Below are positions 42,613-63,305 of a stretch of 64,000 bases of DNA, piece by piece. Positions within the stretch are counted from its first letter, which is position 1. Every line of letters begins with the position of its first letter. The position numbers were made by a program, and so were the translations under genes. Source of the DNA: Azospirillum thiophilum (GTDB taxonomy: Bacteria > Pseudomonadota > Alphaproteobacteria > Azospirillales > Azospirillaceae); contig NZ_CP012403.1 in NCBI RefSeq assembly GCF_001305595.1, forward strand, positions 580,501 through 644,500, written 5' to 3'. The notes beneath the pieces are model-generated. The model saw nothing but the letters and a program-made list of their open reading frames with translations. It did no database searches and was not told the origin of the DNA.

Positions 42613-44580
42613 TCAGCGGCTCCCGGCGCCGGCAGGCGGATCGATGCCCAGCTGCCGCATGCGCCGCCACAGCGTCGCCCGGCTGATGCCCAGCAGCCGC
42701 GCCGCCTCGGCACGGTTGCCGCTGCTGTGCGACAGAGCGCTTTCGATGGCGGCGCGCGGGTCGTCGCCGTCATGCGCTGCCGCCCCGGCCTCTCCCAGGC
42801 CGGGCGGTTCGGGGAACAGTTCCGGGCAGTCGTACCGCAGGATGTCGGGCGGAATGGCGGCGACGCCGCCGAACTGCAGCACCAGCATGGTCAGCCGCTC
42901 GCAGATGTTCTCCAACTCGCGGACATTGCCGGGCCAGCCATAGGCGGTGAACCAGGGCCCCAGCGGGCCGACCACCGCCGACGGCGCCATGTCCGCCTGC
43001 GCCCGCTCCAGGCAGGCGGCGACGAAGCCCTCGGCCAGAGTCGTGACATCCTCCACCCGGTCGCGCAGCGGCGGCAGGCGCAGGCGCAGCGTGTTCAGCC
43101 GGTAGAGCAGGTCGGCGCGGAAGCTGCGCTGTGCAACCAGCTCCTCCAGCGGCTGATGGGTGGCTGCGATCACGCGCAGGTCGACCGGGATCGGCACCAC
43201 GCTGCCGAGCCGCACGATCTCGCGTTCCTGGAGGACGCGCAGCAGCCGGGTCTGCAGCGGCAGCGGCATGTCGCCGATCTCGTCCAGGAACAGCGTGCCG
43301 GTGTGTGCCGCCTCGAACAGTCCGACCTTGCCGCCCTTGCGCGAACCGGTGAAGGCGCCTTCCTCATGCCCGAACAGCTCGCTTTCCAGCAGGGTGTCGG
43401 GAAAGGCCGAGCAGTTGATCGCGACGAAGGGCCGGCCGGCGCGCGAACCGAGATTGTGGATGGCCTGGGCGAACAGCTCCTTGCCGGTGCCGCTCTCGCC
43501 GGAGATCAGCACGGTCAGGTCGCTTGCGGCGAAGCGTCGCGCGGTGGCGCGTGCCCGTTCGATGGCGGGGCTGCCGCCCCCGATGTCGGCCAGCGCGTAG
43601 CGGGTCGTCCGGTTGGAGCGCCGCCGCGTCTGCGAGCGCAGGCTGACGTCGGCCTCGCTGATGGTGCGGGCGTCGTAGACGGTGATCATGGCCCCGGTGA
43701 TCTGGCCATGCTCGCGGATCGGGATGCGGTTGGCGATCCAGTCGCGGCTGCGGAAGCGCAGGACGCTGCCCTTGACCGCCTCGCCGCTGGCCAGCACGCC
43801 GCGCAGCGACAAATCCGGCTCCACCTCCGCCGCGATGCGGCCCAGAACGGCGTTGGGCGGGATTCCCAGCAGGGCCTCCATCGCCGGGTTGACCGCCGTC
43901 ACCCGGTCGTCGGGATCGACCGCCAGGACCGCTTCCTGCACATTCTGCAGCACCCCGTTCAACTGGCCGTAGCGGGCGTTCTCCAGCCGGGCGATGCGGG
44001 CCAGTTCCAAGGCGTCGTCGAGCCCCTGGCGCACGCCCGCCACCGAATAGGCCAGGATGCCCTCCATCCCCAGCCGTTCGGTCGCCTCCACCACCACGCT
44101 CGACCCGATGATGACGGGAAAGCCGCGCTCTGCCATGCCCTTGACGCAGGCTACCGCCTCGTCCGGCGTTTCGTAGGCGCCCTGTTCCACCTCGGTGCGC
44201 AGCAAGCCCTTGATCGCATCCAGTTCCGGGATGGTGCGGCGGTGCATGACGATGCCGACGCGGTTGGAGCGCTCCCGCGCCCGCAGCAGCGCCAGCAGGA
44301 TGTCGTAGCCGCCGACATTGATGGTGGCGACCGGCGATTTCAGGGTGCTGCGCAGATAGCTGGCATTGGCGCCGGCGCTGACGAAGGCATCCACCGTGCC
44401 CGACGCCTCGCGTTCGCGCGCCACGGCGAGCGCCGCCTCGTAGGCCTGGTCGATAACCTCGATCTCGGCCTTCTTGGCATATTCGTCCAGCACGCTGCGG
44501 GCCAGATTGGTCAGATGGCGGTAGCTGAGAAAGCAGAGGCGCAGGCGGCCGTTGTGCCGATGGCCCAGCAATGCGGGCAT
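42613..44580 (-). CDS. PrpR-family sigma-54-dependent activator
   Basis: 655 residues. The N-terminal PrpR_N sensor domain (about 1-190) matches activators that bind a pathway acid or CoA intermediate. A PAS domain (about 205-315) and the sigma-54 AAA+ domain follow, with Walker A GESGTGKE (about 358), contact loop GAFTGS (about 408) and Walker [13 protein letters not shown] Fis-type HTH (RAEAARLLGISRATLWRRMRQLG) ends the protein. No receiver domain is present, so it responds to a metabolite, not phosphorylation. It is divergent from the long catabolic operon, and the region between carries paired sites and a sigma-54 promoter. Confidence 0.92.
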   Translation of the reverse strand: MPALLGHRHNGRLRLCFLSYRHLTNLARSVLDEYAKKAEIEVIDQAYEAALAVAREREASGTVDAFVSAGANASYLRSTLKSPVATINVGGYDILLALLRARERSNRVGIVMHRRTIPELDAIKGLLRTEVEQGAYETPDEAVACVKGMAERGFPVIIGSSVVVEATERLGMEGILAYSVAGVRQGLDDALELARIARLENARYGQLNGVLQNVQEAVLAVDPDDRVTAVNPAMEALLGIPPNAVLGRIAAEVEPDLSLRGVLASGEAVKGSVLRFRSRDWIANRIPIREHGQITGAMITVYDARTISEADVSLRSQTRRRSNRTTRYALADIGGGSPAIERARATARRFAASDLTVLISGESGTGKELFAQAIHNLGSRAGRPFVAINCSAFPDTLLESELFGHEEGAFTGSRKGGKVGLFEAAHTGTLFLDEIGDMPLPLQTRLLRVLQEREIVRLGSVVPIPVDLRVIAATHQPLEELVAQRSFRADLLYRLNTLRLRLPPLRDRVEDVTTLAEGFVAACLERAQADMAPSAVVGPLGPWFTAYGWPGNVRELENICERLTMLVLQFGGVAAIPPDILRYDCPELFPEPPGLGEAGAAAHDGDDPRAAIESALSHSSGNRAEAARLLGISRATLWRRMRQLGIDPPAGAGSR

Positions 44581-44632: not shown

Positions 44633-44678
44633 GTTTCATGAAGCGTTTCATCACGCCGTTCTTTCCGTTTCATGAAAC
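44633..44678. promoter_or_regulatory. paired upstream activator sites for the PrpR-like regulator
   Basis: GTTTCATGAAAC (44667-44678) is a perfect 12-bp palindrome, and GTTTCATGAAGC (44633-44644) is a one-mismatch copy 34 bp upstream. A half site GTTTCAT (44645-44651) lies between. They are about 80-110 bp upstream of the sigma-54 promoter. Binding by the divergent activator is inferred. Confidence 0.72.
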
Positions 44679-44744
44679 ATGGCTCGCCTGCCGCAAATGG
44701 CCAAGGAGATTGATTTTCCTTGGAATGTGCGATGCCCGGCATGT

Positions 44745-44759
44745 TGGCACACCCCTTGC
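44745..44759 (+). promoter_or_regulatory. sigma-54 (-24/-12) promoter of catabolic operon
   Basis: TGGCAC-ACCCC-TTGC is an exact match to the -24/-12 consensus with correct spacing, upstream of the CaiB-like gene and downstream of the paired palindromes. It means the coding start of the CaiB-like gene must lie after about 44770. Confidence 0.88.
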
Positions 44760-44804
44760 TATTTGTTGAACAAACAAATCATCCGACAGATGAAGCATTG
44801 GGGC

Positions 44805-46013
44805 ATGAAGGGCATGGCACCACTGAAGGGCATCCGGTTGATCGACCTGACTCACATGCTGTCCGGTCCATACGGCACCATGCTGTTGACCGACCTCGGC
44901 GCCGAGACGATCAAGGTCGAGCCTCCCGGCCGGGGCGAGGGCACGCGGCAATTGCTGGCGGGCGATCCCGATTATTCGCGTCACGGCATGGGCGCCTATT
45001 TCCTCACCCTCAACCGCGGCAAGCGCAGCGTCTGCATCGATTTGAAGAGCGAGGAGGGACGCGCGGTCTTCCTGGATCTCGTCCGCAAGAGCGACGTGGT
45101 CTTCGACAATTTCAGCGCCGGGGTGACGGAGCGGCTCGGTATCGACTTCGCCGCGCTGTCGGCGGTCAATCCCCGGATCATCACCTGTTCGGTCACCGGC
45201 TTCGGCAGCGACGGTCCCGATCCGCACCGACCCGCCTTCGATCAGGTCGTGCAGGCGATGGGCGGCGGGATGAGCATCACCGGACTGCCCGACGGGCCGC
45301 CGCTGCGCTCCGGCATTCCGATCGGTGATCTGGCCGGCGGCCTCTTCGGCGCCATGGGCGTGCTCGCCGCGTTGAACGAGCGGGCACAGACGGGGGTGGG
45401 GCGTCATGTCGACGTGTCGATGCTGGACGCCCAGATCTCGCTGCTGAACTACATGGGCACGATGCACCTGATGTCGGGCCATGTCCCGGAACGGCTGGGC
45501 AACGGGCATTTCGTCCATGTCCCCTACAACGCGTTCCGGACCGCCGACGGCTACATCATCATCGCCTGCATCGGCGACGCCTTCTTCGAGCGCCTGCTGC
45601 CGGTGATCCGGCGACCCGAACTGGAGGCGCCCGAATACCGCCTCCAGCCCGGCCGCTATGCCGACAAGGCGCGGATCGAGCGGATCGTGGAAGAGGAGCT
45701 GGTCAAGGACACCGCCGCCAACTGGCTGACGCGGCTGCGCGAGGCGCGGGTTCCCTGCGGCCCGGTCTATGACTTCGCCCAGGCGCTGTCGGATCCGCAG
45801 GTGGTCGCCCGTGACATGGTCGTCGACCTGCCGCTGTCGCAGGGCGGGTCGGTGCGGGTGCCGGGCAACCCGATCAAGTTTTCCGGCGCCGGCCCCGACA
45901 GCTTCGCGCCACCGCCCGAACTTGGCCGCGACACCGACGCGGTGCTGGGCTCGCTCCTGGGCTATGGGCCGGACCGCATCGGCGACCTGCGCCGCGCCGG
46001 ACGGGTGGGGTGA
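44805..46013 (+). CDS. CaiB/BaiF family (class III) CoA transferase
   Basis: About 402 residues. Family blocks: GIRLIDLTHMLSGPYGTMLLTDLGAETIKVE, LNRGKRSVCIDLKSEEGR, SVTGFGSDGP, and SGIPIGDLAGGLFGAMGVLAAL. Class III transferases move CoA from an acyl-CoA donor to a carboxylic acid through an aspartyl-CoA intermediate. The frame is open back to 44679, but a start before the sigma-54 promoter is excluded. Met codons at 44790, 44805 and 44814 are candidates; 44805 is given without strong ribosome-site support. It is followed after 3 bp by an HMG-CoA-lyase-type gene, so the activated acid may be its substrate. Confidence 0.87.
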   Translation: MKGMAPLKGIRLIDLTHMLSGPYGTMLLTDLGAETIKVEPPGRGEGTRQLLAGDPDYSRHGMGAYFLTLNRGKRSVCIDLKSEEGRAVFLDLVRKSDVVFDNFSAGVTERLGIDFAALSAVNPRIITCSVTGFGSDGPDPHRPAFDQVVQAMGGGMSITGLPDGPPLRSGIPIGDLAGGLFGAMGVLAALNERAQTGVGRHVDVSMLDAQISLLNYMGTMHLMSGHVPERLGNGHFVHVPYNAFRTADGYIIIACIGDAFFERLLPVIRRPELEAPEYRLQPGRYADKARIERIVEEELVKDTAANWLTRLREARVPCGPVYDFAQALSDPQVVARDMVVDLPLSQGGSVRVPGNPIKFSGAGPDSFAPPPELGRDTDAVLGSLLGYGPDRIGDLRRAGRVG

Positions 46014-46016
46014 GCG

Positions 46017-46934
46017 ATGGACCAGCTGCTGCTGACCGAAGTCGCCCCGCGCGACGGGCTCCAGAACCAGCCGGTGCGGATCGCGACGGCGGACAAGCTC
46101 GATCTGCTGTCGCGGCTGGCCGCCGCCGGCCTGACGCGGATCGAGGCCGCCAGCTTCGCCTCGCCCAGGGCGGTGCCGCAGATGGCCGACGCGGAGGAGG
46201 TCGTCGCCGGAGCCCGCCATCTCGACGGCGTCGCGCTGTCGGCCCTGACCATGAACCTGCGCGGGCTGGAACGGGCGCTGGCCTGCGGGACGCCGCAGGT
46301 CGCCACCGTGGTTGCGGCGACCGGGCAGATGAACCTGCGCAACATCAACATGACGCTAGACCAGGCCACCGCCGTCGCAATGGACGTGATCGGACGGGCC
46401 ATGCAGGCGGGCTGCGGGGTGCGGGCCTATGTCGCCGTCGCCTTCGAATGCCCGTTCGAGGGGCCCGTCGATCCCGGCATCGTCGTCCGGCTGGCCGAGC
46501 GCTTCGCCGCGATGGGGGTGGACGAGGTGGTGATCGCCGACACCATCGGCGCCGCCGGCCCCGCGCAGGTGACGGGCCTGCTGCGGGCGTTGCTGTCCAG
46601 CCTGCCGGCGGAGCGTATCGGCATGCATTTCCACGACACGCGCGGCTTCGGCGTCGCCAATGCCCATGCCGCCATCGAGGCCGGCATCCGGCGGCTGGAC
46701 GCCAGCGCAGGCGGAATCGGCGGCTGCCCCTTCGCTCCCGGCGCCGCCGGCAATGTGGCGACCGAGGATTTGGTCCTGCTGGCCGAGACGTCCGGCCTGG
46801 CGACCGGCGTCGATCTGCACGCGCTGGTCGGTGCGGTGGATTTCGCCGGCGGGCTCCTAGGCCGCGAGTTGGGCGGCCGGGCCATGCCCTGGCTGAGACG
46901 CAGGTTCGCGTCTGCTGCCCGAGATGGTCGTTGA
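46017..46934 (+). CDS. hydroxymethylglutaryl-CoA lyase-type enzyme
   Basis: 305 residues. TIM-barrel HMGL-like motifs: EVAPRDGLQNQ (catalytic Arg-Asp), HFHDTRGFGVAN (metal-binding His) and the Cys loop GGIGGCPFAPGAAGN. HMG-CoA lyase makes acetyl-CoA and acetoacetate; close relatives cleave other 3-hydroxy-3-methyl acyl-CoAs. Nearby CoA transferase suggests the two steps activate, then cleave, a branched hydroxy diacid. The acetoacetate formed could enter the ato pathway encoded at 29-33 kb. A 96-bp AT-richer gap follows, which may hold a second promoter. Confidence 0.88.
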   Translation: MDQLLLTEVAPRDGLQNQPVRIATADKLDLLSRLAAAGLTRIEAASFASPRAVPQMADAEEVVAGARHLDGVALSALTMNLRGLERALACGTPQVATVVAATGQMNLRNINMTLDQATAVAMDVIGRAMQAGCGVRAYVAVAFECPFEGPVDPGIVVRLAERFAAMGVDEVVIADTIGAAGPAQVTGLLRALLSSLPAERIGMHFHDTRGFGVANAHAAIEAGIRRLDASAGGIGGCPFAPGAAGNVATEDLVLLAETSGLATGVDLHALVGAVDFAGGLLGRELGGRAMPWLRRRFASAARDGR

Positions 46935-47030: not shown

Positions 47031-48578
47031 ATGAGCCTGACACAAAGTTCGGCCGACAGCGCCGCGGCCCTGGTGGCGCGGGCGGCGGCATCGACGGTGG
47101 GAAGCCTGTTCGCTTCCATCGCACGCCTTCATCCGCAGCGCATCGCCGTCGAGGACGGCGACCGCGTCGTGACCTTCGCCCAGCTCGCCGAACGGGTGAA
47201 CCGCAGTGCGTCGGCGCTGGCGGCACTGGGGGTCGGGCGCGGCGCCCGTGTCGCAGTGCTGTCGGAAAACCGCCTGGAATACATCGAGGTCCAACTGGCC
47301 TGCGCCCGGCTGGGCGCCATCACCGCCTGCCAGAACTGGCGCCTCAGTGCGAAGGAGCTGGACCACTGCATCGGGCTGGTCGGTCCGGTGGTTGTCCTGG
47401 TGTCGCCCCGCCATGCCGGCAAGCTGTCGGATACCGCCGCCGGCCGGGTTCCGGCGATCGAATTCGGCATGGAGTGGGAACGCCGGCTCGCCGCCGCACC
47501 CGAGGCGCCGCCCGACGTGGCGGAGCCGGAGGATCCCCTGCTGATCCTCTACACCAGCGGCACCACCGGCATGCCGAAAGGGGCCGTGCTGACCCACCGC
47601 TGCGAGCTGGCCCGCATGGGCGCCATGCCGTTCGACCTTGGAGTGCGGCCGGGCAACACCAACCTGTGCTGGCCGCCGCTCTACCACATGGGCGGCACCG
47701 AGCCGGCGCTCTACGCCCTGCTGACCGGCGGACGGGTGATCGTGCTGGATGCCTTCGATCCCGAACGCATCGCCGACAAGATCGAGACGGAGGCGTTCGA
47801 ATGGGTGTCGATCATGCCGGGCACGCTGGGCCGGATGATCGAGGTGCTGGAACGCCGGTCGACGAGGCCGCGCGGCATCCGCACCTGCGGCGTGATGGCC
47901 GACCTGTCGCCGCCCGGCGAGGTGGCGCGGCTGAGCGACCTGCTCGGCGCCGATTTCCTCAACTGCTTCGGCTCGACCGAAACCGGAACCCCGCCGCTGT
48001 CGGGCCGCCAGCTGCCCTGCGGCGACACCGCCGACCTCGGCAAGGCGCCCAGCGTCGGCGCCGAGATCCGGCTGGTCGACGCGGATGACAAGGATGTGGC
48101 CGAGGGCGGCATCGGCGAACTCGCCATGCGCGGGCCGACGCTGTTCAGCGGCTATTGGAACAACGACGAGGCGACGCGCAAGGACTTCCGCAACGGCTGG
48201 TTCCACATGGGCGACCTGTTCCGCCGCCGTCCCAACGGCCTTTACGACTTCGTGGACCGGGCGAAGTACCTGATCAAGTCGGGCGGCGAGAACATCTATC
48301 CCGCCGAGATCGAACGCGTCCTGGTCGGCCATCCCGACGTGCGCGACGCCGTGGTCGTCCGCAAGAAGGACGACCGCTGGGGCGAGATTCCGGTGGCGGT
48401 CGTGGTGTCGAGCAACCCGCGGCTGGAGGCCGCCGAACTCTCCGCCCTCTGCCGCCGGGAACTGGCCGGCTACAAGCAGCCCAAGGCGATCCATTTCGTG
48501 CCGCCCGAGCGCATCGCCCGCTCCACCACCGGCAAGGTGCAGCGCACAGTCATCGAAAGCTGGGTGGAAAGCCAATGA
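47031..48578 (+). CDS. acyl-CoA synthetase (AMP-forming, ANL family)
   Basis: 515 residues. ANL motifs: P-loop LYTSGTTGMPKG, adenine/acyl site NCFGSTETGTPP, hinge FHMGDLFRRRPNGLYDFVDRAKYLIKSGGENIYPAEIE and catalytic Lys in RSTTGKVQRTVIE. It uses ATP to form an acyl-CoA from a free carboxylic acid. A GGGGAGGAG run lies about 10 bp before the ATG. The stop overlaps the acyl-CoA dehydrogenase start (ATGA), so ligase and dehydrogenase are coupled and probably act on the same substrate. Confidence 0.9.
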   Translation: MSLTQSSADSAAALVARAAASTVGSLFASIARLHPQRIAVEDGDRVVTFAQLAERVNRSASALAALGVGRGARVAVLSENRLEYIEVQLACARLGAITACQNWRLSAKELDHCIGLVGPVVVLVSPRHAGKLSDTAAGRVPAIEFGMEWERRLAAAPEAPPDVAEPEDPLLILYTSGTTGMPKGAVLTHRCELARMGAMPFDLGVRPGNTNLCWPPLYHMGGTEPALYALLTGGRVIVLDAFDPERIADKIETEAFEWVSIMPGTLGRMIEVLERRSTRPRGIRTCGVMADLSPPGEVARLSDLLGADFLNCFGSTETGTPPLSGRQLPCGDTADLGKAPSVGAEIRLVDADDKDVAEGGIGELAMRGPTLFSGYWNNDEATRKDFRNGWFHMGDLFRRRPNGLYDFVDRAKYLIKSGGENIYPAEIERVLVGHPDVRDAVVVRKKDDRWGEIPVAVVVSSNPRLEAAELSALCRRELAGYKQPKAIHFVPPERIARSTTGKVQRTVIESWVESQ

Positions 48579-49756
48579 CGGACGCTCTTTCGACCTATGC
48601 CGCCGCCGACGTCGCCGGCAATGCCGACGACATCGACGCGCTGGTCCGCACCGTGCGCGGGTTCGTCGAGACCGCCCTGCGCCCGCACGAGGAGGCCGTC
48701 GACCGCGCCGACGACGTCGATCCCGCCCTGATGCGCGACCTGCGGCGGTCGGCCGCCGAGCTCGGCATCTACGGCTACAACATGCCGGAGGAGATCGGCG
48801 GACCCGGGCTGAGCCGCGTCGCCATCTCGGCCATCGACGAGGCGATCGGCCACACCAGCATGCCGCTGGCCGAGGCCTGCGGGCACCTGCCCGGCTCGCT
48901 GCTGTTCGCCGACGAAAGCCAGCGCGAGTGGTTCGTCGGGCCGCTGATGCGCGCCGAGCGCACCGTCGCCTACGCCCTGACCGAACCGGACGCCGGTTCC
49001 GACCTGAACGCGCTGAAGACGCGGGCGCGGCGCACCGACGGCGGCTGGCTGCTGTCGGGGGCGAAGACCTTCATCTCGCATGCGGAGACCGCGGACCACA
49101 CCATCGTGCTGGCGGTGACCGACCGCGAGGCGCCGCTGAAAGGCCGGCTGACCACCTTCATCGTGCCGCGCGGGGCGAAGGGCTATGCGATCGACCGCCG
49201 CTTCCGCAAGCTGGGCTGGCACGGCTACCACATCTCGGCGCTGAGCTTCGACGAGTGCTTCGTGCCGGATGGCCATGTGCTGGGCGCCCCCGGCGCCGGC
49301 TTCGGCGTGATGATGGCGACCATCAACAACGACCGGCTCTTCGTATCCTGCCGCTGCGTCGGCATGGCCCAGCGGCTGATCGATCTGGCGGTGCCCCATG
49401 CCCGCGACCGCACGACCTTCGGACGGCGTCTCGCCGACCATCAGGCCATCGCCTTCATGCTGGCCGACTGCGACGTCGAGATCGACGCCGCCCGGCTGCT
49501 CTGCGCCAAGGCGGCCCGGCTGTCCGACCTGAAGCATCCGGATGCCCGCATCGCGGCGTCGCGCGCCAAGCTCTACGCGACCGAGATGGTCGGGCGGGTG
49601 GCAGACCGCGTGCTCCAGATCTTCGGCGGCGCCGGCTTCATGGCCGACCTGCCGGTCGAGCGCATCTACCGCGATGCGCGCGGCTTCCGCATCGGCGAGG
49701 GCACCTCGGAAATGCAGCGCCTGCAGATCGCGCGCAGCCTGATCGATCGGACCTGA
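48575..49756 (+). CDS. acyl-CoA dehydrogenase
   Basis: 393 residues. FAD-binding and substrate motifs: VAYALTEPDAGSDLNALKT, the DRTTFGRRLADHQAIAFMLADC block and the C-terminal IFGGAGFMADLPVERIYRDARGFRIGEGTSEMQ, which includes the family end signature. It introduces an alpha,beta double bond in the acyl-CoA and passes electrons to ETF. Coupled with the upstream ligase; the Liv-type transporter genes start 13 bp after its stop. Confidence 0.92.
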   Translation: MTDALSTYAAADVAGNADDIDALVRTVRGFVETALRPHEEAVDRADDVDPALMRDLRRSAAELGIYGYNMPEEIGGPGLSRVAISAIDEAIGHTSMPLAEACGHLPGSLLFADESQREWFVGPLMRAERTVAYALTEPDAGSDLNALKTRARRTDGGWLLSGAKTFISHAETADHTIVLAVTDREAPLKGRLTTFIVPRGAKGYAIDRRFRKLGWHGYHISALSFDECFVPDGHVLGAPGAGFGVMMATINNDRLFVSCRCVGMAQRLIDLAVPHARDRTTFGRRLADHQAIAFMLADCDVEIDAARLLCAKAARLSDLKHPDARIAASRAKLYATEMVGRVADRVLQIFGGAGFMADLPVERIYRDARGFRIGEGTSEMQRLQIARSLIDRT

Positions 49757-49769
49757 GGGAGGCATTCGC

Positions 49770-50651
49770 ATGGAAAGCGCACTCCTTGCCCAGTCGCTGC
49801 TTCTCGCCCTGACCACGGCCGGACTCTACGCGGCCATCGCGTCGGGCCTGACGCTGGAATTCGGCGTGACCGGCATCGTCAACTTCGCGCACGGCGAATT
49901 CGTCATGCTGGGCGCGTTCCTGACCTATTTCCTCTACGAGTCGGTCGGCGTGCCGCCGCTGGCCGGCATGCTGCTGTCCGGTCTGGCGATGACGGCGCTG
50001 TCCTGGCTGGTCTTCGACAGCTTCCTGTCGCGCGTCCTGAAGCAGGACGAGCACAACCAGATCCTCGCCACCATCGGGCTGTCGATCCTGCTGATCAATC
50101 TGGCGATGATCGCCTGGACGCCCGACGCCCGCGTCATGCATGCCCCGGCGCTGCTGCCGCCGCTGGAAATCGGCAGCGTCATCGTTCCGGGCAACAACGT
50201 GGTCGTGCTGCTGGTCGGCATCGCGCTCTATGCCGGGATGATCTGGTTCATGCGGGGCACCCGCCATGGGCTGCTGCTGCGCCTGGCCGCCGACGATCCG
50301 CAGCTCGCCGTGCTGACCGGGGTGGACGTGACGCGGATGTTCCGCCTGTCCTTCCTGATCGGCGGGCTGACGGCGGGCATCAGCGGCGGTCTCGTTGCCC
50401 TGATCCTCTATGTGCAGCCGCTGGTGGGCGTCGATCTGGTGATGCGCGCCTTCGCCATCGTGGCGCTGGGCGGGCTCGGCAGCATCGGCGGCGCGCTGAT
50501 CGGCGCCGTCCTGCTGTCCGCCGCGGAGAACCTGACCGCCACCTTCGTTCCGGGGGGCGGCAGCTGGGGCTACGGCGTCGCCTTCGTCATCATCGTCCTC
50601 GTCCTGGTGGTTCGTCCCACCGGACTGTTCGGATCGGAGCGGCGGGCATGA
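49770..50651 (+). CDS. livH: LivH-type ABC permease
   Basis: 293 residues with about eight helices. Family blocks LTLEFGVTGIVNFAHGEFVMLGAFLTYF and the EAA-like AIVALGGLGSIGGALIGAVLLSAAENL are present. GGGAGG precedes the ATG. First gene of a transporter block H-M-G-F placed within a catabolic operon. Branched-chain amino acid-type importers also carry aromatic, aliphatic and steroid-derived acids, so the substrate is open. Confidence 0.92.
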   Translation: MESALLAQSLLLALTTAGLYAAIASGLTLEFGVTGIVNFAHGEFVMLGAFLTYFLYESVGVPPLAGMLLSGLAMTALSWLVFDSFLSRVLKQDEHNQILATIGLSILLINLAMIAWTPDARVMHAPALLPPLEIGSVIVPGNNVVVLLVGIALYAGMIWFMRGTRHGLLLRLAADDPQLAVLTGVDVTRMFRLSFLIGGLTAGISGGLVALILYVQPLVGVDLVMRAFAIVALGGLGSIGGALIGAVLLSAAENLTATFVPGGGSWGYGVAFVIIVLVLVVRPTGLFGSERRA

Positions 50652-51610
50652 AGACCGGCCTCACCCGCATCCTTCCCTATGCCGCCATCCTGCTGGTCAC
50701 GCTGACGCTGATCTGGATCGACAGGCCCTTCTGGATCCAGCTCGCCATCGGTGTCGCCATCACCGCCGTCACGGCGCTGGCCTGGGACATCCTGTCCCGC
50801 ACCGGCCAGGTGTCGCTGGGATCGGCCGCCTTCTTCGGCATCGGCTCCTATGCGCTGGCGCTGTTCGAGCCGCTGGTCGGGCTGGCGCTGGCCTGGGTCG
50901 CGGTGGTGGTGGTCTGCGCGCTGGCCGCCACCCTGCTCGGACTGCTGACCCTGCGGCTGAGGCGGATGTATTTCGCCATCGCCACGCTGGGCTTCGCCCT
51001 GTCGATGCAGGTGCTGGTCGTTGTGTTCCCCGACTGGACCGGCGGGGCCGGCGGCATCGCGCCGCCGGTGCTGGCCGGCGGCGATCCGCGCTGGCAGCTC
51101 GCGTTGATCGGGTTGCTGCTGCTGGCCGCGGCGGGGATTTCCGACCTGCTGCTCGGCCTGCGCTTCCGCCCCGCCTTCTTCATGATCCGCACCAAGCCCG
51201 AACTGGCGACCGCCAGCGGCGTGCCGGTGGTGCGGATGAAGATCTTCGCCTTCATCGTGTCGGGGGTGCTGATCGGGCTGGCCGGGGCCTGCTACGGCGG
51301 ACTGTACGGCTACGTCGTGCCGACCGACGTGTTCACCACGAACTGGAGCGTGCTGCCGCTGGCCATCGCGACGCTGGGCGGGATGGACACCACGATCGGC
51401 CCCCTGCTGGGCGCCGTCGTCCTGAAGGCGCTGGAGGAGGTGGCGCGCTCGACCATCGGCGGCACCGGCTATCAGGTCGTCTACGGCGCGGTGATCATCC
51501 TGTTCGTCATCGGCATGCCCCAGGGGATCGTCGGGCTGCTGCGCCGCGGCAGGGGCCTGCTGGCCCGCTCCGGCACCGCGAAGAAGAAGGAGAGGGAGCG
51601 CCATGCCTGA
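50648..51610 (+). CDS. livM: LivM-type ABC permease
   Basis: 320 residues, about nine helices, with DILSRTGQVSLGSAAFFGIGSYALAL and the ATLGGMDTTIGPLLGAVVLKALEE block typical of LivM. It overlaps livH by 4 bp (ATGA) and the following livG by 8 bp. Together with LivH it forms the membrane channel. The C-terminus is basic (KKKERERHA). Confidence 0.92.
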   Translation: MKTGLTRILPYAAILLVTLTLIWIDRPFWIQLAIGVAITAVTALAWDILSRTGQVSLGSAAFFGIGSYALALFEPLVGLALAWVAVVVVCALAATLLGLLTLRLRRMYFAIATLGFALSMQVLVVVFPDWTGGAGGIAPPVLAGGDPRWQLALIGLLLLAAAGISDLLLGLRFRPAFFMIRTKPELATASGVPVVRMKIFAFIVSGVLIGLAGACYGGLYGYVVPTDVFTTNWSVLPLAIATLGGMDTTIGPLLGAVVLKALEEVARSTIGGTGYQVVYGAVIILFVIGMPQGIVGLLRRGRGLLARSGTAKKKERERHA

Positions 51611-52376
51611 TACCGGAACTCCCGATGCCGGTGCCGCTGGCGCCCGCGCGGACATCCTCTCGATCCGCGACCTGACCGTGGCGTTCGGCGGGCTGAAGGC
51701 GCTGGACGGGGTGTCGCTGTCCATCGCGGCGGGCGAGATCACCGGCCTGATCGGCCCCAACGGCTCGGGCAAGAGCACACTGGTCAACACCGTGTCCGGC
51801 CAGCTTCCCGTCCGCGGCGGCCGTGTCCACCTCGAGCGCGAGGACGTGACCGGCCGGCGGCCCGACCTGATCGTCCGGTCCGGTCTGGCGCGGACCTACC
51901 AGATCCCGCGCGTGCCGCCGGCCCTGACGGTGGAGGAGGTGCTGTCGGTTCCCCTGCTCTATGCCGGGCGCGAGCGCCACCGGCTGGAGGGGCTGGACAA
52001 CGCCGCCGCCATCGCCGCCTTCTGCGGGCTGGGGCCGCTGTTCCGCCGCCGCTGCGGCGACCTGTCGGTCACCGACCTTCGCCGGCTGGAGATCGCCCGC
52101 GCGCTGGCCTGCGCGCCCAAACTGCTGCTGCTGGACGAGGCGATGGCCGGCCTGTCGCACGAGGATTCGGTGGACGTCATGGCCCTCATCCGCGACGTCC
52201 ATGCCCGGGGGATCAGCATCGTGATCATCGAGCATCTGATGCGTGTCATCACGACGCTGTGCCATCGCGTCGTCGTCCTCAACAACGGCCGCCTGCTGGC
52301 CGAGGGCGCGCCGGCAGCCGTGCTGGCCGACGGGGCGGTCCGCGAAGCCTATCTCGGCAAGGGGTTCGCCCAATGA
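51603..52376 (+). CDS. livG: LivG-type ABC ATPase
   Basis: 257 residues. Walker A GPNGSGKST, Walker B LLLLDEAMAGLSH and H-loop IIEHLMRVI are present. The signature motif is degenerate, LSVTDLRRLEIARAL in place of LSxGQ, which may be compensated by the partner LivF. It overlaps livM and livF by 8 and 4 bp. Confidence 0.92.
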   Translation: MPDTGTPDAGAAGARADILSIRDLTVAFGGLKALDGVSLSIAAGEITGLIGPNGSGKSTLVNTVSGQLPVRGGRVHLEREDVTGRRPDLIVRSGLARTYQIPRVPPALTVEEVLSVPLLYAGRERHRLEGLDNAAAIAAFCGLGPLFRRRCGDLSVTDLRRLEIARALACAPKLLLLDEAMAGLSHEDSVDVMALIRDVHARGISIVIIEHLMRVITTLCHRVVVLNNGRLLAEGAPAAVLADGAVREAYLGKGFAQ

Positions 52377-53095
52377 GCCGCTTCGTCGGACGGATCGGCG
52401 GCGCTTCCTACGAGCGGCTGCGCGTGCTCCACCAGCTGGATTTCGCGGTGGAGAGCGGGCACATGCTGGTCGTTCTCGGCTCCAACGGCGCCGGCAAGAC
52501 CACCGCGCTGCGGGCCCTGGTCGGCACCGTCGCCACCAGCGGGCGCCAGCTCTCGCTCGACGGCCGCGATCTCAGCGGCTACGCGCCCTGGCAACTGCCG
52601 GCCCATGGCGTCGTGCTGGTGCCGGACGGGGCGCGCTGCTTCCCCAACCTCACCGTCGAGGACAATCTGCGCGGCGCCCATTGCGCGGCGGCCGGCGTGC
52701 GCAGGCTGGCGCCCTACGAGCGGCTGAGGGAGACGGTCTGCGGCTATTTCCCCATCCTGCGCGAACGCAGCCGCCAGATCGCCGGCACGATGAGCGGCGG
52801 CCAGCGCCAGATGCTGGCGATCGGGCGGGCGCTGATGACGGAGCCGGCGGCCCTGATCCTGGACGAGCCGTCGGCCGGGCTGGCACCGATCATCGTCGAG
52901 GACATGTTTGCCACGCTGGCCAAGATCAAGCGGGAGAGCGGCTGCGCCATCGTCATGGCCGAACAGAATGTCGGCTACGCCACCCACATCGCCGACCACT
53001 GCATCGTGCTGGAGGAGGGGCGCACCGCGCTCGCCGGCCCGATGGCCGAGGTGGTCAACCACCAGAAACTGCGCAGCGCCTATCTCGGCATCTGA
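52373..53095 (+). CDS. livF: LivF-type ABC ATPase
   Basis: 240 residues. Walker A GSNGAGKTT, signature MSGGQRQMLAIGRAL, Walker B ALILDEPSAGLAP and H-loop MAEQNVGYA are intact. It is the second nucleotide-binding subunit of the importer. It overlaps livG by 4 bp; a 24-bp gap with GGAGG leads to the thiolase-fold gene. Confidence 0.92.
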   Translation: MSRFVGRIGGASYERLRVLHQLDFAVESGHMLVVLGSNGAGKTTALRALVGTVATSGRQLSLDGRDLSGYAPWQLPAHGVVLVPDGARCFPNLTVEDNLRGAHCAAAGVRRLAPYERLRETVCGYFPILRERSRQIAGTMSGGQRQMLAIGRALMTEPAALILDEPSAGLAPIIVEDMFATLAKIKRESGCAIVMAEQNVGYATHIADHCIVLEEGRTALAGPMAEVVNHQKLRSAYLGI

Positions 53096-53119: not shown

Positions 53120-54283
53120 ATGCCGACCGTCGGTTCCGACGTCGTCATCACGGGCATCGGCGAGACCCCGGTCGGCCGCCTGCCCGGACTGTCATCGGTC
53201 GAAATCCAGGCGATGGCGGTCCTCGCCGCCCTTCGCGATGCCGGATTCGCCCTGTCCGACCTCGACGGGCTGATCAACCTCGATCCCTACGCGACGCCGA
53301 ACAGCATGTTCTCCTCGACGCTGGCGGAATATCTGGGGGTGGCGCCGCGCTTCGCCTGCACCGTCGATGTCGGCGGCACCGTCACCGGCATGACCATGCT
53401 GCAACAGGCGGTCTGGGCGGTCGAAAGCGGCTATTGCGAGGTCGTCGCCTGCGTCTATGGCGAGAATGCGCTGACCGGCCGGCCGGCCGGCGCCCAGGGG
53501 CTGCACATGCGCAACCTGCTGGGCGGCGAGGAGTGGGAGGAACCGTTCGGCGTCCACGGCATGGTCATCCCCTATGCCCTGCTCGCCCAGCGCTATCTCG
53601 ACCTCCATGGCGCGGGCGACGAGGATCTCGCCGCCGTCGCCCTGGTGACGCGCCGTCACGCGCTGCTGAACGACAACGCGCAGATGAGGAAGCCGATCAC
53701 GCTGGAGGATTACCGGGCCAGCCGGACGATCAGCAGCCCCCTGCGCCTGCTCGACTGCTCGCTGGTGTCGGACGGCGGCGGGGCGCTGGTGCTGACGCGG
53801 GCCGGGCGTGCTCCTCAGGGCCGGTCGCGGTCGGTCAACATCCGCGCCATCGGCATGAAGACCACGCACAATTCGGTCGCCCTGATGCCCGACATCCCGC
53901 AGCTGGGCATGGCGGCGGCCGGAGCCGACGCCTATGAGGCCGCCGGCATCGGCCCGGAGGACATCCAGGTCGCCAACCTGCACGACGCCTTCACCATCTC
54001 GGTGCTGGTGTCGCTGGAGGCGCTGGGCTTCGCCCGTCCGGGAGAGGCCGGGGCGCTGGTCCGGTCCGGCGCCATGGATCTCGGCGGGCGCTGGCCGCTG
54101 AACCCCCATGGCGGGCTGCTGTCGCAGGCCCACATCGGCGGCATGCTCCACATCACCGAGGCGGTGCGCCAGCTGCGCGGCGAGGCCGGGCGCCGGCAGG
54201 TCGAGGGTGCCCGCCGCGCCCTGGTCAGCGGGAACGGCGGCATCTTCTCCGTCTGCGGCGCCATGATCCTGGAGCGAAACTGA
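53120..54283 (+). CDS. thiolase-fold protein lacking the usual nucleophilic Cys (SCP-x/Ltp2-like)
   Basis: 387 residues, thiolase superfamily: VVITGIGETPVGRLPG at the N-terminus, HDAF in IQVANLHDAFTISVLVSLEALGF, and SGNGGIFSVCGAMIL near the C-terminus. The region that should hold the nucleophile CxSG reads TVDVGGTVTGMTM (residues 81-93), with Gly in place of Cys; Cys80 lies just before but out of the usual register. The His motif is also altered (NPHGGLLSQAHIGG). This pattern, together with the overlapping DUF35 gene, resembles the Ltp2 class of retro-aldolases that act on steroid side chains, not true thiolases. That function is inferred. It overlaps the DUF35 gene by one base. Confidence 0.85.
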   Translation: MPTVGSDVVITGIGETPVGRLPGLSSVEIQAMAVLAALRDAGFALSDLDGLINLDPYATPNSMFSSTLAEYLGVAPRFACTVDVGGTVTGMTMLQQAVWAVESGYCEVVACVYGENALTGRPAGAQGLHMRNLLGGEEWEEPFGVHGMVIPYALLAQRYLDLHGAGDEDLAAVALVTRRHALLNDNAQMRKPITLEDYRASRTISSPLRLLDCSLVSDGGGALVLTRAGRAPQGRSRSVNIRAIGMKTTHNSVALMPDIPQLGMAAAGADAYEAAGIGPEDIQVANLHDAFTISVLVSLEALGFARPGEAGALVRSGAMDLGGRWPLNPHGGLLSQAHIGGMLHITEAVRQLRGEAGRRQVEGARRALVSGNGGIFSVCGAMILERN

Positions 54284-54723
54284 TGCTCGACCTGTTCGCC
54301 ACCCCGCCCGAGCCGACCGAGGCCAGCGCCCCCTTCTGGGCCGGCTGCGACCGGCAGGAGCTGCTGTTTCCCAAATGCGGAAGCTGCGGGCACCTCTTCT
54401 ACTACCCGCGCCGCCATTGCCCGCGCTGCAGCGGCACCGCGCTCGGCTGGCAGCGGCTGTCGGGCAGGGGAACGGTCTTCTCCTTCACCCATGTCGCCGT
54501 CGCCTTCCAGGGGGCGGAGTGGGAGGGACAGCTTCCCTATACCGTGGTGCTGGTCGATCTGGCCGAGGGCCCCCGCATGCTGAGCCGGCTTGTCGGCCGG
54601 TCGGACAGCGGGTCGGAAGGCCCGGCACCCGTCGAGGTGCGCTCGGGCGACGCGGTCACCGTCGTCTTCCCGCAGATCGGCGGACGGCGCTTTCCCTTCT
54701 TCGAGCGCGCCGCCGCCGGCTGA
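54283..54723 (+). CDS. DUF35 OB-fold zinc-ribbon protein
   Basis: 146 residues. Zinc ribbon CGSCGHLFYYPRRHCPRC (four Cys, about residues 33-50) followed by an OB-fold (GRGTVFSFTHVAVAF; VLVDLAEGPRMLS). DUF35 proteins bind acyl-CoA and form complexes with thiolase-fold partners such as Ltp2, contributing to the active site or product transfer. The 1-bp overlap with the preceding gene supports a direct complex. Confidence 0.9.
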   Translation: MLDLFATPPEPTEASAPFWAGCDRQELLFPKCGSCGHLFYYPRRHCPRCSGTALGWQRLSGRGTVFSFTHVAVAFQGAEWEGQLPYTVVLVDLAEGPRMLSRLVGRSDSGSEGPAPVEVRSGDAVTVVFPQIGGRRFPFFERAAAG

Positions 54724-54784: not shown

Positions 54785-55987
54785 ATGCCCATTCTGAAGA
54801 CGCTCGCGGCGGGTGCCGCAGCGCTCGCCATGGCCGCCCTGTGGGTGCCGCAGGCGGTTGCCCAGGCACCGGCCCAGACGGCCGGGCCGATCAGAATCGG
54901 CGTCCCGCTGCCGTTGACCGGCGTGCTGGCGGTCGGCGGCCAGACGATCCTGTCCGGCGTGAAGTTCGCCGCCGAGGAGATCAACGCCGGCGGCGGCTTG
55001 CTGGGCCGGCCGGTCGAACTGCTGATCGAGGACACCAAGAGCGAGCCGAACACCGCCGCTACCATCGCCGCCAAGATGGTGACCGAGGACAAGGTCTACG
55101 CCTTCGTCGGCGGCTACGGCAGCACGGCCGATTTCGCCCTGCTGTCCAGCGTGAAGCGCTACAAGCCACTGTTCATCCACACCGGCTCCTCCTCGGTCCG
55201 GCTGGAGACCAGCTTCGGCAAGGAGGACTGGTACTATCACATCTACATCTGGGACTATCACCGCCAGAAGGCCGCCTCGCGCTTCCTCGCCTCCATCGAG
55301 CCGAAGGTGAACACGGTGGCGCTGGCCTATGAGGACGGGCTCTACGGCGCCGATGCGGCGAAATACGCCGAGGAGTATTTCTCCAAGGCCGGGATGAAGC
55401 TGGTGATGAAGGAGCCGTTCAAGTCCGGCTCGCCCGATTTCTCGCCGGTCCTTTCCCGCGTCAAGTCGCTGAACCCGGACGCCTTCTTCTCGGTCGGCTA
55501 TTCGGGCGACAATCTCCAGCTCGTCCGCCAGATGAAGAGCCTGGGCATCAAGCCGAAGCTGACCATGGTGGTGTCGGCCGGGGACCGCCGCGCCGATTAC
55601 GGCGACATGAGCGAGGGGCTGACCATGATCACCGAATGGTCCACCGCCGACCGCACCCCGGCCGCCGCCGAACTGATCCGCAAGGTTGAGGCGAAGGGAC
55701 AGGCCATCGCCCCGGTCTTCCCCCAGGGCTATGCCGGCATGATGACGCTGGCGGACGCGATCAGGACGGCCGGCAGCCTCGATCAGGACAAGGTGCGCAA
55801 GGTGCTGTCGACCGCGACCTTCGACACTCCGTACGGCAAGATCGGTTACCGCGCGTCAGAGGGCGGCGGCCTGCACCAGTTGCTGTCCGACGAGACGATG
55901 GTCATCGTCCAGCACCGCAAGGAGGGCGAGGAGGTGGTCTATCCCGCCGCCAAGGCCGGCGGCAAGCTCGCCTATCCGGCGCCCTGA
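54785..55987 (+). CDS. livK: LivK-like periplasmic binding protein of ABC importer
   Basis: 400 residues. Signal peptide with cleavage near AVAQAPA (about 24-26). Mature part is a periplasmic-binding fold type I of the amino-acid/aromatic acid class (PIRIGVPLPLTGVLAVGGQTILSGVKFAAEEIN). It should deliver substrate to LivHMGF encoded upstream. An AGGAGG site precedes the ATG. Separation of the binding protein from H-M-G-F by the thiolase-DUF35 pair suggests uptake and degradation are a single unit. Confidence 0.9.
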   Translation: MPILKTLAAGAAALAMAALWVPQAVAQAPAQTAGPIRIGVPLPLTGVLAVGGQTILSGVKFAAEEINAGGGLLGRPVELLIEDTKSEPNTAATIAAKMVTEDKVYAFVGGYGSTADFALLSSVKRYKPLFIHTGSSSVRLETSFGKEDWYYHIYIWDYHRQKAASRFLASIEPKVNTVALAYEDGLYGADAAKYAEEYFSKAGMKLVMKEPFKSGSPDFSPVLSRVKSLNPDAFFSVGYSGDNLQLVRQMKSLGIKPKLTMVVSAGDRRADYGDMSEGLTMITEWSTADRTPAAAELIRKVEAKGQAIAPVFPQGYAGMMTLADAIRTAGSLDQDKVRKVLSTATFDTPYGKIGYRASEGGGLHQLLSDETMVIVQHRKEGEEVVYPAAKAGGKLAYPAP

Positions 55988-55988
55988 G

Positions 55989-56759
55989 ATGGCCGTCCGT
56001 TTCGAACGGCGCGGGACGGTCGGGCTGGTCACCCTGTCGAAGCCCGACCGTCACAACGCGCTGGCCGGCGATCTGGTGGCGGCGCTGCTCGACACCCTCG
56101 ACCGGCCGGAAGCCCGGCAGGCCAGCGCCCTGGTCATAGCCGGGGACGGGCCATCCTTCTGCGCCGGGGCCGACATCGGCGACCTGCTGCAGGCCGGATG
56201 GATGACGCCTCAGCCGTCCGGCCCGACGCCGATGGACCTGTTCGAACGGCTGGACAGCCATCAGCGCCCGACCGTCGCGGCGGTCCATGGCCGGGCGCTG
56301 GGCGGCGGGTTCGAGCTGATGCTGTGCTGCGACCTCGCCGTCGCGGCGGAGGATGCGATCTTCGCCCTGCCGGAACTGGGGCTTGGGGTGGTGCCCAACA
56401 CCGGGCTCGCCCGGCTGGTGCAGATCGCCGGTCCCCGCCACGCGCTGGACCTGATCCTGACCCGCCGCCGGATCGGCGCGGCGGAGGCCGCGGCGCTGGG
56501 TCTCGTGTCGCGCGTCGTGCCGGCGGCCGAACTGGTGGACCGTGCGGTGGAGCTTGCCCGCGCCATCACCGACGGGGCGCCGCCCGGTGCCGTCGCCGCG
56601 GTCAAGCGGGCGGTGCGCCGCACCGCGCCGCTCGACTGGGCCGAGGTGCGCGGCATGCTGGCCGAGGTGCCTGCCGGGGAATGGGCGGAGGGGCTTGGCG
56701 CCTTCCGCGACAGACGGCCTCCCGACTACAGCGAATTCTGGAGAAAATCCGATGCGTAA
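55989..56759 (+). CDS. enoyl-CoA hydratase/isomerase family protein
   Basis: 256 residues. Crotonase motifs: VGLVTLSKPDRHNALAGD, oxyanion SFCAGADIGDLL, HGRALGGGFELMLCCD with the first catalytic Glu, and ALPELGLGVVPNTG with the second. Both catalytic Glu are present, so hydration of the enoyl-CoA made by the upstream dehydrogenase is likely. It starts 1 bp after the livK stop and overlaps the amidohydrolase gene by 8 bp. Confidence 0.9.
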   Translation: MAVRFERRGTVGLVTLSKPDRHNALAGDLVAALLDTLDRPEARQASALVIAGDGPSFCAGADIGDLLQAGWMTPQPSGPTPMDLFERLDSHQRPTVAAVHGRALGGGFELMLCCDLAVAAEDAIFALPELGLGVVPNTGLARLVQIAGPRHALDLILTRRRIGAAEAAALGLVSRVVPAAELVDRAVELARAITDGAPPGAVAAVKRAVRRTAPLDWAEVRGMLAEVPAGEWAEGLGAFRDRRPPDYSEFWRKSDA

Positions 56760-57573
56760 CGCCCAATCCTTCGACGTCTTCGATCTGCACCACCATGTCG
56801 GCTCGCTCGACATCGTCGGCAAGGGGCCGCAGTGCGCCGGTGACATGGTGGCCGACGCCGACAAGCGGATCGCCTTCATGGACCGCCACGGCATCGCCCA
56901 GGCTTTGCTGATGCCGTCCAACGGCTACCAGGCGCCCGACGGCATCGCCGACACCCGCCGGGTGAACGACAGGGTGGCGGAGTACCGCGACCGCTGGAGC
57001 GCCCGGTTCCCGGCGGCGCTCGGCACCGTCTCGCCGCTGGAGGGGGACGCGGCGCTGGACGAGATCGACCGCTGCGTCGAGGTGCTGCAGATGAAGGGCA
57101 TCGTCTGGCACCATCGCTTCCAGGGCTGCGCCATCGACCATCCGCGGATGGACGCCCTGCTGGAGCGGGTGCGGCACCATGGCGTGCCGGCCTTCATCCA
57201 CATCATCGGCGACTCCAAGCTGGAATCGCCCTGGAAGCTGGAGGTGCTGGCGGAGCGTTTTCCGGATGTCCGCTTCGTGGCGCTGGACGCCTTCTCCTCG
57301 CCCGACTTCGCCCACTGGATGCCGCACATCGCGCGCAGGCACCCCAACATCGTCTTCGATACCGGGGTGATGGTTCCGGTGTCGCACATGATCGAGACCT
57401 TCGTCCGGAGCGCCGGGGCGCACCGTCTGCTGCTGGGCACCGATTTCTATTCGTCGCCCAAGCTGTTCAGTTCGCCCTTTCCGTTGACCGAAATCCTGGC
57501 CTCCGACCTGCCGGACGAGGAGTGCGCGCTGATCCTGGGCGGCAATGCCAGACTCCTGCTGGGGCTCGCCTGA
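56752..57573 (+). CDS. amidohydrolase_2-type TIM-barrel metal-dependent hydrolase
   Basis: 273 residues. N-terminal DLHHHVGS metal-binding HxH-like motif, HHRFQG, FIHIIGDSK and LLLGTDFYSS with the catalytic Asp. Members of this family (ACMSD/amidohydrolase_2) act as decarboxylases or hydrolases in catabolism of aromatic and other acids. It is the last gene of the sigma-54-controlled cluster. Which bond it cuts is unknown; removal of a carboxyl, ester or lactone from the imported compound is plausible. Confidence 0.85.
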   Translation: MRNAQSFDVFDLHHHVGSLDIVGKGPQCAGDMVADADKRIAFMDRHGIAQALLMPSNGYQAPDGIADTRRVNDRVAEYRDRWSARFPAALGTVSPLEGDAALDEIDRCVEVLQMKGIVWHHRFQGCAIDHPRMDALLERVRHHGVPAFIHIIGDSKLESPWKLEVLAERFPDVRFVALDAFSSPDFAHWMPHIARRHPNIVFDTGVMVPVSHMIETFVRSAGAHRLLLGTDFYSSPKLFSSPFPLTEILASDLPDEECALILGGNARLLLGLA

Positions 57574-61459: not shown

Positions 61460-62431
61460 TCAGGCCAGGGCTTCGCGCAGGCGGGCGAGCCGCTGCGCCT
61501 CGCAGGCGCGGGCGGCCAGCGCCTGTTCCATGTCGACCTTGACGAAGCGGACGCCGGTGTGGGGCTGCATCTGGCCGATCAGGTCCATGTCGGCGGAAAC
61601 CACCGCGCCCAGCGTGAAATAGCCGCCGCCCGACACGGCGTCGCGATGCAGCACGATCGGTTCGGTGCCGCCGGGTACCTGGATCGACCCGTAGGGATAG
61701 CAGGCGTCGACGATGTTGGAGGGGTTGGAGCCGGCGCCGAAGGGCTGGTCGCGTGGCTCGAAGCTGAAGGGGCGGCCGCCGCGGAAGCGGTAGCCCATGC
61801 GGTCGGCCTCCGGCGCCACCTTCCAGCTGTCCTCGAAGAAGTTGCGCCCGGCCTCCTCGGTGATGAGGCGCCAGTACAGGCCGGGCAGCACGCGCAGCTC
61901 GGCGCTCTTGCCGACCGTGCGGCGCAGCGCCTCGGGCACCTCCATCCCATGCTGGACGGCGCGCGGCGTCCCCAGCGGCACCATATCGCCGGCCGCCAGC
62001 GCCCGGCCGTGATAGCCGCCCAGCGCGCCGATGATGTAGGTGGAGCGACTGCCCAGTGCCGGCGGCGTGTCGATGCCGCCGGAGATCGCGATGTAGGCGC
62101 GGGCGCCGCCCTTCAGATAGTCGAAGGACAGCACCTGTCCGGCGCGGACCGGGAAGGCCGTCCATGCCGGGTGCGGTTCGCCGTCGACCCGTGCCGGCAG
62201 GTCGGCGCCGGCGACGGCGACGGTCGCGTCCACCTCGAACTCGAGCTGCGGGCCCATGAAGACCGCCTCCAGGGCGGCGGCGCCTTCGGGGTTGCCGACC
62301 AGCAGGTTGGCGGCGCGCAGCGCGTAGCGGTCCATCGCCCCCGACATCGGGATGCCGAGATGGAAATAGCCGGGCCGGCCGAGATCCTGGACCGTCGTCA
62401 GCAGGCCGGGGTTGAGAACCTTAAACGCCAT
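61460..62431 (-). CDS. pxpC: PxpC-type carboxyltransferase/5-oxoprolinase subunit (AHS2 domain)
   Basis: 323 residues. AHS2/KipA hallmark TTVQDLGRPGYFHLGIPMSGAMDRYALRAAN near the N-terminus, IAISGGIDTPPALGSRSTYIIGALGG in the middle. In PxpABC this subunit works with PxpB and the LamB/YcsF protein PxpA on 5-oxoproline; in urea-amidolyase-like systems the same domains carry out carboxyl transfer from biotin. Its start overlaps the pxpB gene by 11 bp. Confidence 0.88.
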   Translation of the reverse strand: MAFKVLNPGLLTTVQDLGRPGYFHLGIPMSGAMDRYALRAANLLVGNPEGAAALEAVFMGPQLEFEVDATVAVAGADLPARVDGEPHPAWTAFPVRAGQVLSFDYLKGGARAYIAISGGIDTPPALGSRSTYIIGALGGYHGRALAAGDMVPLGTPRAVQHGMEVPEALRRTVGKSAELRVLPGLYWRLITEEAGRNFFEDSWKVAPEADRMGYRFRGGRPFSFEPRDQPFGAGSNPSNIVDACYPYGSIQVPGGTEPIVLHRDAVSGGGYFTLGAVVSADMDLIGQMQPHTGVRFVKVDMEQALAARACEAQRLARLREALA

Positions 62432-63296: not shown

Positions 63297-63305
63297 CCGG
63301 TGCTC

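Follow-up and report, generated by a model that had tools for sequence, protein, structure and literature searches.

The window analysed here, a stretch of 64,000 nucleotides from Azospirillum thiophilum, contains a gene for a thiolase-fold protein, THL, that lacks the catalytic cysteine of its superfamily, set in an operon with a Liv-type transporter. The question raised by this locus is which reaction such a protein could catalyze there. Biochemical knowledge of thiolase-fold retro-aldolases concerns steroid side chains, and for ibuprofen there is pathway and genetic evidence. A first-pass annotation of the region had noted the THL gene, the overlapping gene of a DUF35 protein and a resemblance to the steroid aldolase Ltp2. 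The coordinates and the overlap of one base (AACTGATGC) were borne out (Table 1).

THL was placed in the Thiolase_C_1/SCP2-like branch of the thiolase superfamily by similarity of both sequence and fold, with a Pfam match to Thiolase_C_1 (PF22691) at 3e-48. Its solved relatives by sequence were, best first, 4U4E, 9MYR (Sal) and 6OK1 (Ltp2), followed by cysteine-containing thiolases. A Foldseek search with an AlphaFold2 model of THL, of moderate quality (mean pLDDT 71.5), gave the same relatives, with 4U4E, Ltp2 and Sal at the top. The match to 4U4E, an uncharacterised "thiolase" of Sphaerobacter thermophilus, reached 1.2e-64 with phmmer and 6.2e-32 with Foldseek. 4U4E shares with THL the glycine at the cysteine position and the GHP-type histidine, but reads YDSF where THL reads HDAF.

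Alignment by MAFFT with the cysteine thiolases 7YVY and 6ESQ and three supported retro-aldolases placed Gly86 of THL at the position of the nucleophilic cysteine, as the first-pass annotation had read it, and the C-x-S/G motif of active Cys-dependent thiolases is absent. Cys80 was considered as the nucleophile and rejected by the alignment; it lies six residues before Gly86, and in the orthologues from betaproteobacteria other residues, chiefly Thr or Ser, take its place. The GHP motif had been described as changed, which holds for the motif, now AHI, but not for its histidine, which is kept as His338. In Ltp2, Tyr294 of YDHF acts as the base and Tyr344 as the acid; in Sal, Tyr302 and Cys304 of YDCY are essential, and little or no activity is left in the variants Y302F, C304A, C304S and C304H (PMC12329534). 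Because THL has His288-Asp-Ala-Phe and His338, both aldolase tyrosine positions are occupied by histidine: Tyr294 and Tyr344 of Ltp2 correspond to His288 and His338, the Tyr302-Asp-Cys304 dyad segment of Sal to His288-Asp-Ala290, and Gln352 of Sal to His338.

The likeness to Ltp2 was therefore upheld in part. The Ltp2-ChsH2(DUF35) complex of Thermomonospora curvata (6OK1), an aldolase of the cholesterol C3 side chain, shares with THL the thiolase fold, glycine at the cysteine position, a DUF35 partner with a C4 zinc ribbon and the same spacing of the GHP region (x-A-Y/H-I-x-G-M), but not the active site. Its DUF35 is fused to MaoC, whereas the THL operon has a stand-alone DUF35, a crotonase in place of the MaoC hydratase and no steroid context. 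Sal-Shy(DUF35) of Comamonas testosteroni (9MYR), which acts on the bile-acid C5 side chain, likewise shares fold, glycine and DUF35 partner, but Shy binds zinc by C3H1 instead of C4. IpfDE, the ibuprofen retro-aldolase that forms propionyl-CoA and 4-isobutylcatechol, is the non-steroid precedent (PMC9195938). IpfD-IpfE, from plasmid pIBU218 of Rhizorhabdus wittichii, is like THL-DUF35 a proteobacterial thiolase-like/OB-fold pair. The ipfD gene, read from this plasmid, encodes glycine, YDAF and a tyrosine at the Ltp2 Tyr344 position; glycine and alanine thus match those of THL, but IpfD has tyrosine at both positions where THL has histidine. Moreover, the C4 motif is absent from IpfE, and the ibuprofen pathway is built on a ring dioxygenase as opposed to the dehydrogenase and crotonase of the THL operon. 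The PFC_04095 thiolase (7YVY) and the acetoacetyl-CoA thiolase/DUF35/HMG-CoA synthase complex (6ESQ), the latter also with a DUF35 partner, have the HDCF/HDAF motif and the GHP histidine in common with THL, but both carry the nucleophilic cysteine. As HDAF and the GHP-type histidine are those of true thiolases, the active site of THL does not by itself imply retro-aldol activity. By context THL is best described as aldolase-like, yet by its residues it stands outside the Ltp2 and Sal types.

The DUF35 partner matched zf-ChsH2 and OB_ChsH2_C above the Pfam cut-off. Its four zinc ligands are kept in the 14 orthologous loci compared, and it lies directly downstream of THL in all orthologous loci whose sequence extends far enough. 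THL thus belongs to the broad group of Cys-less thiolase-fold proteins with an adjacent DUF35 gene. The pair is a common and already known arrangement and is not in itself new, because the thiolase-like family was present in 569 of 72,556 plasmid records and a DUF35/OB-fold gene adjoined the thiolase-like gene in most of the annotated records inspected.

Table 1. Features of the THL operon and its control region (positions in the window).
Feature	Position	Strand	Remarks
Sigma-54 activator	42613..44580	-	PrpR_N sensor and Fis HTH; divergent from the operon
Palindrome GTTTCATGAAAC	44667..44678		Candidate upstream activator site; kept in six genomes
Family III CoA-transferase (CaiB type)	44679..46013	+	Mechanical ORF start 44679 precedes the sigma-54 promoter; true start probably 44805 or 44814
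Sigma-54 promoter TGGCACACCCCTTGCT	44745..44760	+	In front of the operon; kept in six syntenic genomes
HMG-CoA lyase family protein	46017..46934	+	Conserved RD, HFHD and GGCP motifs
Acyl-CoA synthetase (AMP-binding)	47031..48578	+	
Acyl-CoA dehydrogenase	48575..49756	+	Catalytic Glu in EGT motif conserved; core-module member
LivH, LivM, LivG, LivF	49770..53095	+	Branched-chain-type ABC transporter
THL	53120..54283	+	Cys-less thiolase-fold protein, 387 aa; Gly86 (nucleophile position), His288-Asp-Ala-Phe, His338 (QAHIGGM), Ser370 at second-Cys (CxG) position
DUF35 partner	54283..54723	+	146 aa; C4 zinc ribbon (C-x2-C-x10-C-x2-C) and OB fold; stand-alone, no MaoC fusion
LivK-type periplasmic binding protein	54785..55987	+	PF13458
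Crotonase-family enoyl-CoA hydratase	55989..56759	+	Both catalytic Glu (GGGFE, LPE); core-module member
Amidohydrolase_2 protein	56752..57573	+	PF04909; weak match to 5-carboxyvanillate decarboxylases

The operon genes follow one another in the order of Table 1, from the CoA-transferase to the amidohydrolase. The sigma-54 promoter in front of them has a chance expectation of 0.01 in the window. PDB matches of the CoA-transferase include human succinate-hydroxymethylglutarate CoA-transferase and oxalate/formyl-CoA transferases. No gene for a 3-hydroxyacyl-CoA dehydrogenase, a cysteine thiolase or a carboxylase was found among the operon genes. Further along the window, at 61460-63974, the reverse strand carries genes with carboxyltransferase domains (CT_A_B, CT_C_D) and a partial ORF resembling biotin carboxylase, which seem to have no connection with the THL operon.

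Five further Azospirillum genomes, each of another species, share the whole cluster of 14 genes in synteny, and THL is among its most conserved products. A core of acyl-CoA dehydrogenase, THL, DUF35 and crotonase recurs in Azospirillum, Rubrivivax (locus L068), Comamonadaceae (L064) and Oceanicola (L071), with the catalytic glutamates of dehydrogenase and crotonase kept. HMG-CoA lyase retains its motifs. The Rubrivivax bin shares the activator, CoA-transferase, HMG-CoA lyase and synthetase as well, and there Liv is replaced by a binding protein that is Bug-like as read from its N-terminal sequence and not from a model hit. In some orthologous loci (e.g. L060, L062, L065) THL-DUF35 occurs without an adjacent dehydrogenase or crotonase.

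In a scan of 84,980 species genomes, 17 orthologous loci were found at 68-94% identity, in Azospirillum, Oceanicola, Comamonadaceae, Rubrivivax, Ramlibacter and other betaproteobacterial metagenome bins. Within the genus, five genomes besides the 7.6 Mb genome of the window carried THL at 93-94% identity, and the next homologues stood at 44%. Samples of 398 genomes of the phylum and 385 of the class gave no orthologue outside the genus above the 40-45% level of paralogues, and none above 43% identity was found among the 72,556 plasmid records. No report on this family was found in the literature. Gly86, His288 and His338 are invariant in all 17 loci wherever covered (L069 covers residues 1-354). 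Compared with the orthologues of the same genus, dN was about 0.04 and dS about 0.4 (dN/dS about 0.1); THL is under purifying selection. Given this ratio and the three invariant residues, the unusual site is not a product of chance.

Residue pairing was compared in 80 homologues. Cysteine at position 86 was accompanied by histidine at 288 in all five cysteine sequences, and all 64 Cys-less homologues outside the THL group had tyrosine at 288; glycine with histidine occurred only in the 11 sequences of the THL group, which thereby breaks an otherwise strict link. In a maximum-likelihood tree (IQ-TREE) the HDAF sequences formed a clade with 100/100 support that fell within the Cys-less group and close to the lineage of Ltp2 and IpfD. 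Another tree, built by a faster method after the longest branches had been taken out, again placed THL inside the Cys-less clade; support for this placement was modest in both trees. The nesting within this tyrosine clade is not firm; a topology uniting THL with the cysteine thiolases passed the AU test (p-AU 0.08). Since that tree is not formally rejected, the His/His state may have arisen early, or it may be a reversal that took place inside the aldolase lineage.

The reading that we find somewhat more convincing than not is that THL-DUF35 is an aldolase-type complex which ends a shortened beta-oxidation, a non-steroid retro-aldolase cleaving the product of the crotonase in the manner of Ltp2, Sal and IpfD, but with a His/His site. 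The acyl-CoA synthetase or the CoA-transferase would activate an imported acid, the acyl-CoA dehydrogenase would introduce a double bond, and the crotonase would add water to it. THL would then split the beta-hydroxyacyl-CoA into acetyl-CoA (or propionyl-CoA) and a ketone or aldehyde, a step needing neither 3-hydroxyacyl-CoA dehydrogenase nor thiolysis. That the neighbouring enzymes supply a beta-hydroxyacyl-CoA had been proposed in the first-pass annotation. The conserved dehydrogenase and crotonase, together with the lack of a dehydrogenase that would oxidize the product, agree with this; the crotonase gene is, however, situated downstream of THL and not upstream as had been stated, and the proposed substrate with a tertiary (branched) beta-carbon is a possible candidate only. 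The sequences themselves show the gene order, the residues and their conservation; complex formation, the retro-aldol direction and the roles of the histidines are what we infer from them. Around Gly86 the beta-hydroxyl could find space and contacts with the backbone. His288, at the site of the tyrosine of Ltp2, Sal and IpfD (the assigned base in Ltp2 and Sal), would remove the hydroxyl proton, and His338, at the site of the acid Tyr344 of Ltp2, would protonate or hold the acyl-CoA enolate. DUF35 would be a structural partner lining the pocket.

Three hints to the substrate were followed and set aside. The CoA-transferase and HMG-CoA lyase suggest HMG- or citramalate-like acids, a MaoC hydratase is present in L068, and an ICL/PEP-mutase gene in L071; each is suggestive, but they are not consistent across the loci, and no substrate is claimed for this reason. 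The ICL/PEP-mutase family gene of Oceanicola sp. 22II-s10i (L071:7806-8660, reverse strand) has methylisocitrate and 2,3-dimethylmalate lyases among its matches; together with a GntR/FCD regulator it is divergent from the THL module, a possible substrate hint.

Cys-substituted ketosynthases of the KSQ type act as decarboxylases, and glycine with His/His gives THL the look of a thiolase or ketosynthase from which only the nucleophile has been removed. THL could accordingly decarboxylate a malonyl- or beta-keto-type CoA ester. The Cys-less SLP of Trypanosoma does so slowly with malonyl-CoA (kcat 0.005 per s), but no such decarboxylation is seen with Sal (PMC12329534). The conserved neighbours of THL would yield a beta-hydroxyacyl-CoA instead of a malonyl or beta-keto ester, and neither a hydroxyacyl-CoA dehydrogenase nor a carboxylase is encoded in the operon; a decarboxylase is considered unlikely.

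The thiolase-like His288 and His338 could also belong to a thiolase or acyltransferase with another nucleophile (Cys106, Cys213, Cys379 or Ser370), in which case the operon would carry out ordinary beta-oxidation and draw on a hydroxyacyl-CoA dehydrogenase encoded at another place in the genome. The three cysteines are invariant in the aligned orthologues, but none of the candidates aligns with either catalytic cysteine of thiolases, and the DCC/DCS motif around Cys213 is common to most Cys-less relatives, including Ltp2. Ordinary thiolases for thiolysis are, moreover, usual in such bacteria, and we regard this explanation as improbable. The same applies, and a little more strongly, to THL joining carbon chains by aldol addition or condensation, or acting on CoA esters in a different way, for example by hydrolysis: either direction is compatible with the fold, but the uptake system, synthetase, dehydrogenase, hydratase and HMG-CoA lyase are catabolic. 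That THL is a true steroid side-chain aldolase of the Ltp2/Sal type, transferred to a Liv operon, would agree with the same fold, the DUF35 partner and the aldolases among the best PDB matches, but is very improbable because both the Tyr/Tyr and the Tyr/Cys catalytic pairs are absent, the operon has no steroid gene and the steroid-ring model HsaA, a single marker, gave five sub-threshold matches and none above the cut-off in the genome, while transport is of the Liv type, or by a Bug-like binding protein in Rubrivivax, and DUF35 lacks the MaoC fusion.

New at this locus is a conserved family of orthologues whose active site reads Gly/His/His and whose genes sit in a non-steroid module that recurs. 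With retro-aldolase activity, the family would extend the set of thiolase-fold retro-aldolases to a compact operon of plant-associated and freshwater bacteria. Going further, THL and its orthologues could represent a third type of active site by which the thiolase fold achieves retro-aldol cleavage, without Cys or Tyr and with His288/His338, derived by a secondary Tyr-to-His swap within the aldolase lineage or left as a relic of the passage from thiolase to aldolase in which the Cys was lost, and serving an undescribed, sigma-54/PrpR-controlled catabolism of a non-steroid acid in proteobacteria; this joint reading is offered tentatively and with some doubt. THL allows a direct test of the conversion of a thiolase active site into an aldolase and of histidine in place of the catalytic tyrosine, and enzymes of this sort are of interest as C-C bond-forming biocatalysts.

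The replicon of the window carries several Liv-thiolase clusters. Upstream of the window, at a distance of about 31-48 kb, are three paralogues of THL, 31-44% identical (G000:C3:532749-549848; L005, L006); two have Gly/YDSF, one is a thiolase with Cys/HDCF, and two have DUF35 and Liv genes nearby. Separate from ipfDE, pIBU218 has another thiolase-like/OB-fold pair (L054:939-2503, reverse strand), which shows YDHF and tyrosine as in Ltp2 and adjoins a crotonase and a CaiB CoA-transferase. Other unusual Cys-less variants, as read from automatic alignment at these positions, were alanine with YDGF and arginine on a plasmid of Sphingobium sp. V4 (L114), and serine with YDDY and glutamine on a plasmid of Ochrobactrum sp. 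MT180101 (L106).
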